DNA of 64,000 nt from NCBI GenBank assembly GCA_040219085.1, contig JAVJTC010000029.1:186001-250000 (forward strand). The letters are read 5' to 3'. The stretch is from Acidimicrobiales bacterium (GTDB lineage: Bacteria > Actinomycetota > Acidimicrobiia > Acidimicrobiales > JAVJTC01). Below, one piece after another: positions 48,152 to 54,309 of the stretch (the stretch's first letter is position 1; every line of letters starts with the position of its first letter). A model generated the notes under the pieces. It ran no database searches. It was not told the DNA's origin and saw nothing but the letters and a program-made list of their open reading frames with translations. The position numbers and the translations under genes were made by a program.

Positions 48152-50446
<2,295 letters not shown>

Positions 50447-50459
50447 GGACCTGAGCGTA

Positions 50460-50476
50460 ATACCCCCTGGGGGTAT
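50460..50476. promoter_or_regulatory. CsoR operator 1 (copA side)
   Basis: ATACCCCCTGGGGGTAT is a perfect 17-bp palindrome with a central T. It matches the known CsoR operator form TACCCC-N-GGGGTA and lies 14 bp upstream of the copA start. Confidence 0.88.
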
Positions 50477-50486
50477 CTTCAACCAC

Positions 50487-50501
50487 TACCCCCCGGGGGT
50501 A
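50487..50501. promoter_or_regulatory. CsoR operator 2 (csoR side)
   Basis: TACCCCCCGGGGGTA is a perfect 15-bp palindrome about 27 bp from operator 1 (centre to centre about 26 bp) and just upstream of the csoR -10-like element. It would allow CsoR to repress its own gene. Confidence 0.88.
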
Positions 50502-50506
50502 CCAGA

Positions 50507-50512
50507 TAGAAT
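50507..50512 (+). promoter_or_regulatory. -10 element for a probably leaderless csoR transcript
   Basis: TAGAAT fits the actinobacterial TANNNT -10 element. It ends six bases before the csoR ATG at 50519, so transcription would begin at or next to the start codon. The AGGGG just before the ATG is too close to work as a ribosome site. Confidence 0.6.
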
Positions 50513-50518
50513 AGGGGA

Positions 50519-50854
50519 ATGGCTTCGAACACCCAGGGGTCCGTTTCGACGACGAAGTCCCCCACACGACCCAAACCGGGCTACTCGACGACGCGCGAGG
50601 AGCACCTCGCGAGGTTGCGCCGTATCGAGGGTCAGGTGCGGGGACTTCAACGGATGATCGACGAGGACACCTACTGCATCGACGTCATGACCCAGATCTC
50701 CTCGGTCACGAAGGCACTCCAGCGGGTCGGACTCGGCCTGCTCGACGAGCACGTCCGACACTGCGTCCTCGAGGCCGCCGCCCGTAGCCCCGAAGAGGGC
50801 GACGAGAAGGTCCACGAGGTCGTCGCCGCCGTCGAGCGCCTACTGCGCAGCTGA
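50519..50854 (+). CDS. csoR: Copper-sensing transcriptional repressor CsoR
   Basis: The 111-residue protein is a DUF156-family helical repressor: LARLRRIEGQVRGLQRMIDE, then the Cu(I) ligands Cys in DTYCIDVMTQ and the His-Cys pair in LLDEHVRHCVLEAA. CsoR binds TACCCC-type palindromes and releases them on binding Cu(I). It is divergent from copA and probably controls both genes. The N-terminal about 25 residues are a polar Ser/Thr/Lys-rich tail. Confidence 0.95.
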   Translation: MASNTQGSVSTTKSPTRPKPGYSTTREEHLARLRRIEGQVRGLQRMIDEDTYCIDVMTQISSVTKALQRVGLGLLDEHVRHCVLEAAARSPEEGDEKVHEVVAAVERLLRS

Positions 50855-50870: not shown

Positions 50871-51938
50871 ATGACGACGATCGCGGTCGAGCGGGTCATC
50901 ACCCCGATGGGCGTCCGCACCGGCGCCGAAGTCGAGGTGCACGGCACCCTCATCGACTCCGTGCGGCCCGCCACCGGAGCAGTCGAGCCCTGGACCCTGA
51001 TACCGGGGCTGATCGACCTGCAGGTCAACGGGATCGGCGGGATCGACGTGTGGAGCGCCCACGGGTCCGACTGGGACCACCTCGACGCCGCGCTCGCGCG
51101 CCAGGGGGTCACCGCCTGGCTCCCGACGCTCACCTCGCGCCCCCTGGCGGACTATCCCCGGGCGCTGGAGGCGATCACCGAGGCGGCACTCCGTGACGGA
51201 CGGGGGCGCCCCGCCATCCTGGGCGCCCACCTCGAGGGTCCGTTCCTGGGGCACCGCACCGGCGCCCACGACGATGCAGCCGTCGTCGCCGTCGACCTCG
51301 GCTGGATACGCGACCTCCCCGACAACGTCCGGCTCGTCACCCTCGGCCCGGAGCGTGAAGGCGCCCTCGATGCGATCTCCGCGTTGAGCGCCACCGCTGT
51401 GATCGTCGCCCTCGGCCACACCGAGGCCGATATCGCCACCATGACGGCTGCCGTGGACGCCGGGGCTTCGATGGTCACGCACCTCTACAACGCGATGAGC
51501 CCGTTCCACCATCGCGCCCCGGGACCGGTCGGCGTCGCGCTGACCGACCCCCGCCTGACCACGTCGCTCATCGCGGACGGCATCCATGTCGAGCCGGTGG
51601 CGATCAAGCTCGCGTTCGCCGCCAAGGGGCACGGCCGGGTCGTCCTCGTCAGCGACCAGGTTGCGGGGGCGCCCGATGCAGGCGCGGTACGCCTCGCCGA
51701 TGGGACCCTCGCCGGGGCCACCGCCTCACTCGCCGACGGAGTGCGCTTCGCGGTGACCCGCTGCGGCATCCCGCTCGACATCGCCGTCCACGCCGCGTCG
51801 ACGACGCCGGCTGCGCTCATGGGCGACGGGAGCCGCGGACGGGTGGAGGCCGGCGCGCGCGCGGACCTCGTCGCGCTGGACGCGGACCTGGAGGTTGCCG
51901 CGGTGTGGATTGGCGGCGAGCGCGTCAGCCTCGACTGA
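50871..51938 (+). CDS. nagA: N-acetylglucosamine-6-phosphate deacetylase
   Basis: The 355-residue amidohydrolase has the NagA motifs PGLIDLQVNGIGGIDVW, GAHLEGPFLG (metal-binding Glu), ALGHTEADIATM, VTHLYNAMSPFHHRAPG, IADGIHVEP and the catalytic Asp in VLVSDQVAGA. NagA removes acetate from GlcNAc-6-P in amino-sugar and cell-wall recycling. It starts 16 bp after csoR but has no clear functional link to copper. No nagB is in view. Confidence 0.93.
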   Translation: MTTIAVERVITPMGVRTGAEVEVHGTLIDSVRPATGAVEPWTLIPGLIDLQVNGIGGIDVWSAHGSDWDHLDAALARQGVTAWLPTLTSRPLADYPRALEAITEAALRDGRGRPAILGAHLEGPFLGHRTGAHDDAAVVAVDLGWIRDLPDNVRLVTLGPEREGALDAISALSATAVIVALGHTEADIATMTAAVDAGASMVTHLYNAMSPFHHRAPGPVGVALTDPRLTTSLIADGIHVEPVAIKLAFAAKGHGRVVLVSDQVAGAPDAGAVRLADGTLAGATASLADGVRFAVTRCGIPLDIAVHAASTTPAALMGDGSRGRVEAGARADLVALDADLEVAAVWIGGERVSLD

Positions 51939-51947
51939 GCCGTCGAC

Positions 51948-53738
51948 TCACCACTCGATGGGGGGCCCCGGATCGAGCGGCTCGACCCTTACCTCGACGT
52001 GGAGGGACTCGGCGCCGCCACCGCGGTGGATGGTCCCCGCCGTCGGAGTCGCGTCGATGTAGTTGCGCCCGCATGCCACCCGAACGTGATCCGGGCCGAC
52101 GACACAGCCGTTGGTCGGGTCCAGTCCCCTCCACCCGAGGTGGGGCAGATAGACCTCCACCCAGGCGTGGGACGCCTCTGACTGCATCGTGTTCTCGTAG
52201 TCGGCGCCGGTGTAGATGTAGCCGGTCCGGTAGCGGGCCGGGATTCCCGTGAGCCGGGCGAGGCAGATCAGGAGGTTCGCGAAGTCCTGACAGACGCCCG
52301 CACGCTTCGTATAGACCTCCCACGGCGTCGTCGCGAGCGTCGTCGCGCCCGGGTGGTAGGTGAAGTCACGGTGGATCGTGACGTTCATGTCCTCCAGGGT
52401 CGCCCACAGGTCGTTGCGGTTCCGCTCGGCGAAGCCGGTGGCCAGTTCGGAGAGCTCGAGGAGTTGGATCTCAGGCAGCTCCGGAGGCAGCAGGTACGGC
52501 AACATCATCTGGCGCTGCCACGGCATCCAGACCAGGGGGATCGTCGGACGGTCCGCCCGCCGCGAGGGGTCCTCCAGTTCCCGGACGCGCACGATGGACC
52601 GGGCCACGATCGAGAACTCGGTGAACGGGTCCTCGATCTCGTAGCCCGCCACGTCGTTGCCGAAGACGTCTTCCCAGTCCGTGCGGACACCGTCCACGCT
52701 CATCTCCAGCGAGTGCAGTTGGATGCGCTGATCGCGGTCACGCACGGGCACCAGGCGGAAGCGGTGCGAGCTGCGCACGACCGGCTCGTCGTAGGTGTAC
52801 GTGGTGCGGTGGTTGACCTCGAGAAGCCGCTCCGGTGGGCGACGCTGAGCGGCCACCGGCGCCGCTGTGACGCCAGGCGTGTGCAGGCCGGGGTCGGGCA
52901 TCTCGTGGGCGTCGGCGAGGACCGGAACCGGATCCGTCAGCGCACCCGTGTCGTAGTGGATCGCACCGCGCCGGATCACGAGAAGTTGTCCGGGGGCCAT
53001 CGTCGTCCACTCGCCGTCGTCGAGGGGTTCGGTGGACACGACGAGCGCCGTACGGTTCTCGTCGAGAGGGCCCGAGAGGTCGAGGGTGATCCCGTTGCGC
53101 TCGAGGACGTGGGCGGCGTGGGGCGGCACACGGCGTCGCCAGCTCATCGGGTTGTGTCCGGATCGGTCCTGATAGGCGATCAGGTCCAGGCCGTCGGACA
53201 ACACCACGTTGAGGGTGCCGAGCTCGTTGGCCTCGGCGAAGAGGTCCGCGAGGCGGTCGTAGCCGAACTCCGAGAGAGTCGCTGCGCCGGCGTCACGGGC
53301 ACACGACAACAGCCAGCCGAAGAGCCGCTCGGTGTCCGTCTGACCGATCGGCTCGAACTCCGGGCCGTGGATCGGGAGCCTCGCGCCGAGATCCCCGCGC
53401 AGGTCTCCGTTGTGGGCGATGGACCAGGTCCGCCCGCCGTACGCCCGCAGGAAGGGGTGCGTGTCACGGTGCGCCGCCCGCTTCGCGGCGCCGCGCAGGT
53501 GACATACGAAAATCGTCGAGCGGAACCTGTCCCAGTCCCGAAGAACGGCCGACATCACGTCGGAGCCCGTGGAGACCGGGTCTTTCACGACGGCAGCCGC
53601 GAGCTCACCCACCGGATACCAGGCGATGCCCCAGCCGCTGCGCCAGTCGGGTCCGCTCGCGAGCGGCCACGGATCGTCCGACATCGAGATCGCCGGGGAC
53701 GCCGGGCCGTCGAAGGACAGGCCCAACAGGTCGCTCAT
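51948..53738 (-). CDS. Class II glutamine amidotransferase-like domain fused to transglutaminase
   Basis: The ATG at 53738 with GGAGG six bases upstream gives 596 residues; the longer open frame to 54008 overlaps another gene. Residues 1 to about 300 resemble YafJ-type class II amidotransferases (FVCHLRGAAKRAAHRDTHPF, WSIAHNGDLRGDLG), but residue 2 is Ser, not the catalytic Cys. Residues about 335-596 are a bacterial transglutaminase/protease domain with Cys483 (AGVCQDFANLL), His524 (ASHAWVEVY) and Asp540 (RGLDPTNG). The N-terminal half may use Ser as nucleophile or be inactive. The C-terminal half could cleave or crosslink amide bonds; the substrate is unknown. No signal peptide is visible. 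Confidence 0.88.
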   Translation of the reverse strand: MSDLLGLSFDGPASPAISMSDDPWPLASGPDWRSGWGIAWYPVGELAAAVVKDPVSTGSDVMSAVLRDWDRFRSTIFVCHLRGAAKRAAHRDTHPFLRAYGGRTWSIAHNGDLRGDLGARLPIHGPEFEPIGQTDTERLFGWLLSCARDAGAATLSEFGYDRLADLFAEANELGTLNVVLSDGLDLIAYQDRSGHNPMSWRRRVPPHAAHVLERNGITLDLSGPLDENRTALVVSTEPLDDGEWTTMAPGQLLVIRRGAIHYDTGALTDPVPVLADAHEMPDPGLHTPGVTAAPVAAQRRPPERLLEVNHRTTYTYDEPVVRSSHRFRLVPVRDRDQRIQLHSLEMSVDGVRTDWEDVFGNDVAGYEIEDPFTEFSIVARSIVRVRELEDPSRRADRPTIPLVWMPWQRQMMLPYLLPPELPEIQLLELSELATGFAERNRNDLWATLEDMNVTIHRDFTYHPGATTLATTPWEVYTKRAGVCQDFANLLICLARLTGIPARYRTGYIYTGADYENTMQSEASHAWVEVYLPHLGWRGLDPTNGCVVGPDHVRVACGRNYIDATPTAGTIHRGGGAESLHVEVRVEPLDPGPPIEW

Positions 53739-53889: not shown

Positions 53890-54309
53890 ATGAGTGAGAT
53901 CGACCGGCGGACGGGCATGGAGACCCTCTCTGAGGACGAGTGCTGGTCCCTGATGAAGAAGACGGCGGTCGGCCGCCTGGCCGTCTCGATCGGTGGCGTT
54001 CCCGACATCTTCCCCGTGAACTACGTCGTCGACGGTCGCTCGATCGTCGTGAACACGGCGCCGGGGACCAAGCTCGCCGCTGCGGTCTTCGGCGAGGGCG
54101 TCGCATTCGAGGTCGACTCCGTCGACGAGGACAGGAAGCTCGGCTGGAGCATCGTGATCCAGGGCACCGGCACCGAGATCGAGAAACTGGACGATCTCAT
54201 GGACGCCGAGAGCCTCGACGTCGAACCGTGGGCCGACGGGTACAAGGGTCGCTTCCTGCGGATCGACACGGACCGCATCAGCGGCCGACGCATCCCGGGT
54301 CACGACTGA
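53890..54309 (+). CDS. PNPOx-like flavin-binding split-barrel protein
   Basis: The 139-residue protein has a good ribosome site (AAGGAG) and the pyridoxamine-phosphate-oxidase-like fold: VGRLAVSIGGVPDIFPVNYV, then DGRSIVVNTAPGTKLAAAV and VAFEVDSVDED. Members bind FMN or F420 and reduce small molecules, or act as general flavin-binding proteins. It is divergent from the transglutaminase fusion gene and followed 4 bp later by an SDR gene. The substrate is unknown. Confidence 0.87.
   Translation: MSEIDRRTGMETLSEDECWSLMKKTAVGRLAVSIGGVPDIFPVNYVVDGRSIVVNTAPGTKLAAAVFGEGVAFEVDSVDEDRKLGWSIVIQGTGTEIEKLDDLMDAESLDVEPWADGYKGRFLRIDTDRISGRRIPGHD

Follow-up and report, generated by a model that had tools for sequence, protein, structure and literature searches.

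The window, by which we mean the whole 64,000-nucleotide stretch of the Acidimicrobiales contig that was analysed, carries a gene whose product joins a class II amidotransferase-like domain to a transglutaminase-like half (Table 1). The protein starts with MSDLLGLSF, with Ser as residue 2, and a GGAGG motif precedes the ATG (53738, minus strand) by a few bases, which bears out the original prediction that a Ser replaces the catalytic Cys2 of class II amidotransferases. Read on the plus strand, 51948-53738 yields another sequence, interrupted by a stop codon, and this reading was rejected.

The fusion gene is solitary on its contig (C29), between an Amidohydro_1 gene, whose product presumably resembles an N-acetylglucosamine-6-phosphate deacetylase, and a Pyridox_ox_2 gene. 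Farther along, a long minus-strand ORF (48152-50854) adjoins a plus-strand ORF; judged by eye, the first resembles a copper-type P-type ATPase and the second a CsoR-type metal repressor.

Table 1. Coordinates of the fusion gene, its domains and its direct neighbors in the window.
Feature	Position	Strand	Remarks
Fusion gene, 596 aa	51948..53738	minus	Stop codon at the 51948 end, ATG at 53736-53738; Shine-Dalgarno-like GGAGG upstream
GATase_4 (class II amidotransferase), residues 1-262	52953..53738	minus	Pfam E 2.6e-59; Ser2 replaces Cys; fold match 1te5
Linker, residues 268-296	52851..52937	minus	Low confidence/disordered in the model, pLDDT under 50
Bact_transglu_N, residues 306-383	52590..52823	minus	Pfam E 4e-19
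Transglut_core, residues 450-541, with Cys483, His524, Asp540	52116..52391	minus	Pfam E 4e-19; 3isr fold match
Divergent neighbor, Pyridox_ox_2 family	53890..54309	plus	Pfam; no known link to the fusion
Convergent neighbor, Amidohydro_1 family	50871..51938	plus	Pfam; no known link to the fusion

Domains and predicted structure

The Pfam match, the AlphaFold2 model built from the alignment (mean pLDDT 86.5, pTM 0.87) and the structural matches place the first half in the Ntn amidotransferase fold. It superposes on 1te5 with a Z score of 30.4 (246 aligned residues, rmsd 2.5 A), and further matches are EgtC (Z 20.7), PurF, GlmS and, at a greater distance, beta-lactam synthetase (Z about 12). Judged by the aligned ranges, the superpositions on EgtC and PurF both begin at residue 2 of the model, opposite the catalytic position or the C2A substitution there. 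The AHNGDL motif is kept at residues 108-113, as originally predicted, and the N-terminal Cys nucleophile that marks catalytic class II enzymes is replaced by Ser2 in the window protein.

The second half superposes on the transglutaminase-like structure 3isr (Z 26.7, 266 aligned residues, rmsd 3.0). Its Transglut_core domain with Cys-His-Asp places it in the transglutaminase-like superfamily. The triad had been described as intact from the window protein alone; we find Cys483, His524 and Asp540 present there and invariant in 79/79 aligned fusions.

Relatives and distribution

One protein scan of the contig collection led to 94 confirmed related loci, 80 of which were kept, at about 37-55% identity. 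Both halves are readable in 78 of these 80, and nearly all matches span both halves, which argues against a chance arrangement of the two. The record titles include Planctomycetota, Myxococcota/Deltaproteobacteria, Eremiobacterota, Nitrospina, Alpha-, Beta- and Gammaproteobacteria, Cyanobacteria/Melainabacteria, Spirochaetales, Waddliaceae and one Actinobacteria bacterium, among others.

The fusion family is widespread but sparse. Matches occur in 32 of 282 genomes of the phylum of locus L071 (titled Myxococcaceae), partial-model matches included, in 8 of 246 genomes of the phylum of L061 (Planctomycetota) and in 3 of 398 genomes of the phylum of L094 (titled Betaproteobacteria), there at full length only in the center genome. 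For the window's own phylum, no second full-length fusion is found among 59 relatives or among the matches listed, sorted by E value, from 296 drawn genomes; two proteins of this phylum (L022 and L035) consist of the amidotransferase alone, both with Cys2. A pattern search of viral contigs gave no match. The plasmid search gave matches in 305 records; coverage of the query stays below 80% in every one, and the best 20 of these 305 match the transglutaminase half.

In the tree of the amidotransferase domain, the window protein stands nearest to a Planctomycetes protein (L065, support 91), so the fusion gene may well have been acquired by gene transfer; in GC content, the gene differs little from its surroundings. 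The only other fusion from an Actinobacteria-titled record (L138:5995-7749) sits on a very long branch; its position 2 is Pro, and His109 and Asn110 are replaced by Phe and Asp. A subgroup from the phylum of L071 (L172, L173 and L175-L183) starts like M-P-N-L-L-A-M-S-F-E-G; Pro stands where the catalytic Cys would be, and Asp10, invariant elsewhere, is mostly Glu.

Gene neighborhoods

Partner families were derived by ORF clustering, followed by tblastn with representatives whose families had been checked. By tblastn of these representatives, alpha-E (PF04168) and circularly permuted ATP-grasp (PF14403/PF04174) genes each lie near the fusion in 51/80 loci. The transglutaminase-DUF2126 gene (PF09899, "putative amidoligase") is likewise found in 51/80, some of these matches perhaps being transglutaminase only, and in 45 loci by ORF clustering. 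All three partners accompany the fusion in 35 of the 80 loci, and one or more do so in 68. In 10 loci, the searched genes are all missing, and 2 more have glutaminase alone; a flank is shorter than 3.5 kb in 25 of the 80. The fusion clade is thus tied by gene neighborhood to the ATP-grasp/alpha-E/transglutaminase system, reportedly predicted by Iyer et al. in 2009, as quoted in the papers on Anbu, to be an amide-bond system. Anbu is the proteasome-like Ntn protein of the usual operon.

The partner adjacency that characterizes this system is seen in the relatives and not at the window locus: alpha-E, ATP-grasp and transglutaminase-DUF2126 are all absent from the window. The same genome encodes one alpha-E and one CP_ATPgrasp_2 protein side by side on another contig (C9), together with a separate transglutaminase, and DUF2126 was not found in this genome. 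The solitary fusion could act together with the ATP-grasp/alpha-E operon on that other contig.

A true glutaminase gene (PF04960; Pfam was run on three of the seven loci) lies near the fusion in 7/80 loci, namely, five Planctomycetota, an Oligoflexia and a Marinicaulis record. It is found just 3' of the fusion in L061, L062, L063 and L124 and nearby in L065, L110 and L111; in four Planctomycetota loci, it overlaps the end of the fusion gene or begins only a few bases from it. A supposed glutaminase in L127 was dropped, as the match covers only the C-terminal tail of the query.

One locus, L137, encodes on the minus strand a proteasome homologue, which we take to be Anbu-like, 4.1 kb downstream of the fusion (L137:11917-12669); the locus also carries ATP-grasp, alpha-E, transglutaminase and DUF2126 genes. 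The match of this gene to the Pfam Proteasome family is weak (21.3 bits), and NCBIfam gives no match. At the sensitivity of one tblastn query, no Anbu-like gene was found in the other 79 of the 80 loci. We had considered that the dead Ntn domain of the fusion might replace Anbu, an idea that is weakened by the Anbu-like gene beside the fusion in L137.

Loss of the amidotransferase nucleophile

The window protein and 78 of the 80 loci, without L121 (masked N-terminus) and L139 (cut), were aligned with MAFFT. Position 2 of this alignment is Ser in 49 rows, Thr in 15, Gly in 9 and one of six other residues once each; Cys occurs in 0/79. A larger set combined these 79 rows with 29 loci from the search of the L071 phylum, the 30th (L184) having no amidotransferase half, and rows more than 90% identical in the amidotransferase domain were removed. 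The resulting 86 non-redundant fusions have Ser in 49, Thr in 11, Pro in 11, Gly in 9, Ala in 2 and Asn, His, Arg and Ile in 1 each, again with no Cys. Nor does Cys2 appear in L211-L219, which stand outside the counts, seven of them repeating earlier loci, L217 having an internal stop and L218 being cut by the contig end. The homologue alignment that had been proposed as a check on the constancy of Ser2 thus reveals a variable position.

Stand-alone GATase_4 proteins served as controls, taken from 120 genomes of the L094 phylum, 25 of which match at an E value of 1e-20 (26 rows minus L208, which is L094's own fusion). They have Cys2 in 25/25, and the pocket equivalents are Arg in 25/25, Asn in 24/25, Gly in 25/25 and Asp in 25/25. 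Homologues with Cys, which were to count against the original prediction, hence exist among the unfused relatives, but the fusions include none (0/86).

In a tree of the amidotransferase domain (135 rows, trimmed to 111 by removing those more than 90% identical), a single branch separates the fusions from the Cys2 proteins (SH-aLRT 97, from a quick search), which would fit one loss of the nucleophile. Over all rows, at least 15 state changes at position 2 are needed on this tree. Since the fusions form one clade, the nucleophile was probably lost once and early, at or before the fusion event. Relatives with this loss are spread over many phyla, usually near predicted amide-bond genes, which suggests a retained, non-cutting part rather than a serine enzyme. 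On these grounds, we regard the first domain of the window protein as a predicted pseudo-amidotransferase.

The retained pocket and alternative explanations

The two halves of the fusion are conserved to different degrees: mean pairwise identity is 61% in the transglutaminase half and 40% in the amidotransferase half, with 54 and 9 invariant columns, respectively. In the window protein, the glutamine-binding Arg and Asp and the oxyanion Asn-Gly equivalents are all four present; we take them to correspond to Arg73, Asp127, Asn101 and Gly102 of PurF. Across the 86 fusions, Arg82 is kept in 46, Asn110 in 50, Gly111 in 86, Asp135 in 80 and Glu137 in 86, so the glutamine-anchoring Arg and the oxyanion Asn have drifted. 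Other residues are fixed in the fusions: Asp10, Pro15 and Pro205 are found in 79/79 and Arg202 in 78/79, whereas Asn, Ile, Ala and Thr prevail at these positions in the Cys2 proteins. In the larger set, 77 rows have Asp at position 10 and 9 have Glu. These residues, invariant in the fusions alone, indicate that the dead domain is not simply decaying, and we read it as having taken on another duty. Cys141 is present in 75/79 fusions and in most Cys2 proteins; the window protein has Gly instead (53316-53318).

The first domain may be a non-catalytic binding module that presents amides to the transglutaminase, one of two roles originally proposed for it, though the expected glutamine anchor, Arg82, is kept in just 46/86 fusions. 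This drift and that of the oxyanion Asn110 (50/86), together with the faster evolution of the amidotransferase half, would also suit a pure scaffold, which binds nothing in the old pocket, stabilizes or dimerizes the transglutaminase and slowly loses its active-site residues. Such a scaffold is possible, though we think it unlikely: Gly111 and Glu137 are retained in all 86 fusions and Asp135 in 80, and new residues have become invariant in the fusions, although the latter could equally be explained as structural.

The other role originally proposed, a serine-type N-terminal nucleophile hydrolase, fared worse. A Ser or Thr is found in 60/86 non-redundant fusions, including the window protein, but the constant N-terminal hydroxyl of a Ser/Thr-type Ntn hydrolase is missing, with other residues in 26/86, among them one clade of 10 rows with Pro and one of 9 rows with Gly. 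Moreover, given the N-terminal alignment register, which the conserved strand that follows fixes well, the residue has no start codon directly before it in 41/78 loci and therefore is not N-terminal there unless the protein is processed. Because position 2 varies within a single clade and often is not residue 2, we consider a Ser/Thr hydrolase very improbable. Slightly less credible still would be an amidotransferase domain kept active by a different nucleophile, such as Cys79, which lies in the strand leading to Arg82. Cys79 tends to be a trait of the fusions, occurring in 57/79 of them compared with 2/27 of the Cys2 set, but Gly, Ser, Ala or Ile takes its place in 22/79, and Ntn chemistry works through the N-terminal residue.

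A wrong start codon hiding a true Met-Cys beginning, which the original prediction had named as a risk, can be practically dismissed: the frame is open upstream as far as an ATG at 54008, but a start there would collide with the divergent Pyridox_ox_2 gene at 53890, the extension up to 54008 contains no start codon followed by Cys and therefore no alternative start yields Cys2, the start at 53738 has its Shine-Dalgarno sequence, and the homologues align at this same start.

Proposed function

We favor, with moderate confidence, a transglutaminase-fold enzyme of a bacterial amide-bond system that retains an inactive amidotransferase module. The C-terminal Cys-His-Asp half would carry out the chemistry through a thioester on Cys483, either a transamidation or the hydrolysis of an amide, gamma-glutamyl or isopeptide bond. 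The N-terminal half would be a class II amidotransferase inactivated by the single loss of its Cys nucleophile at or before the fusion, and it might be kept to hold the enzyme in shape and to bind substrate, product or a partner. The circularly permuted ATP-grasp ligase, alpha-E and/or the transglutaminase-DUF2126 protein would make the amide that the fusion edits or transfers. To our knowledge, no activity is known for any fusion member. Against the amide-bond reading count the window locus without partners, the 10/80 loci without any searched gene, the ATP-grasp/alpha-E operon of the same genome, which already has its own transglutaminase, and the absence of DUF2126 from that genome.

A more specific version of the amide-bond reading is tentative and, in our judgment, rather doubtful: the amidotransferase domain would have been converted once, early, into a gamma-glutamyl or glutamine receptor that gates or feeds the transglutaminase in a widespread pathway building or editing amide bonds. 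Such a role for glutamine or its gamma-amide, as the molecule sensed or exchanged, would agree with the glutaminase genes that adjoin the fusion in three lineages.

On this evidence, the window protein belongs to an old clade of transglutaminase enzymes that carry a dead amidotransferase domain. Profile libraries label such fusions glutamine amidotransferases, and in the alignment the nucleophile is gone across the whole fused clade. The fusion connects the amidotransferase fold with the ATP-grasp/alpha-E/transglutaminase system, and its own invariant residues, together with the adjoining glutaminase in some lineages, provide handles for finding the substrate. Among the open-access papers listed, we found none on a fused or inactive amidotransferase of this kind; Iyer et al. 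2009 may mention the architecture.

Comparison with known systems

The unfused counterpart of the fusion loci is the ATP-grasp/alpha-E/transglutaminase/Anbu operon, which two papers on Anbu describe as a predicted peptide-synthesis system of unconfirmed function (PMC5666114, PMC6376114; see also PMC3597751); in one of them, the published hypotheses on the operon are themselves termed unconfirmed (PMC6376114). The fusion loci resemble it in the flanking alpha-E and circularly permuted ATP-grasp genes (51/80 each). They differ in that the transglutaminase of the usual operon is not fused and Anbu accompanies it, while an Anbu-like gene was seen in 1/80 fusion loci; the window locus is without the partner genes.

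The closest structural counterpart of the first half is the GATase_4/YafJ-type protein 1te5 from Pseudomonas aeruginosa, which shares the fold over residues 2-263 at 27% identity, including the H-N-G and T-D-x-E motifs. In contrast to the fusion with its Ser2, 1te5 has Cys2 in the alignment and no transglutaminase half. For the second half, the transglutaminase-like protein 3isr from Cytophaga hutchinsonii shares the fold of residues 300-592 at 23% identity, but it has no amidotransferase domain.

EgtC (4zfl), the gamma-glutamyl Ntn hydrolase of ergothioneine synthesis, has the same fold as the first half, whereas the window protein scores 22.9 bits against the TIGR03442 equivalog model with its cut-off of 218.65 bits and is not an EgtC by this measure. 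The 4zfl entry title describes an EgtC C2A variant solved with its natural substrate, indicating that loss of the Cys need not abolish binding. Beta-lactam synthetase (1mc1, 1jgt) also has an N-terminal Ntn amidotransferase fold. Its second half is an ATP-using synthetase, whereas that of the fusion is transglutaminase-like, and the fusion is therefore not a beta-lactam synthetase. The class II domain of beta-lactam synthetase reportedly has no catalytic Cys either, which would be a precedent for a dead domain retained in a fused enzyme.
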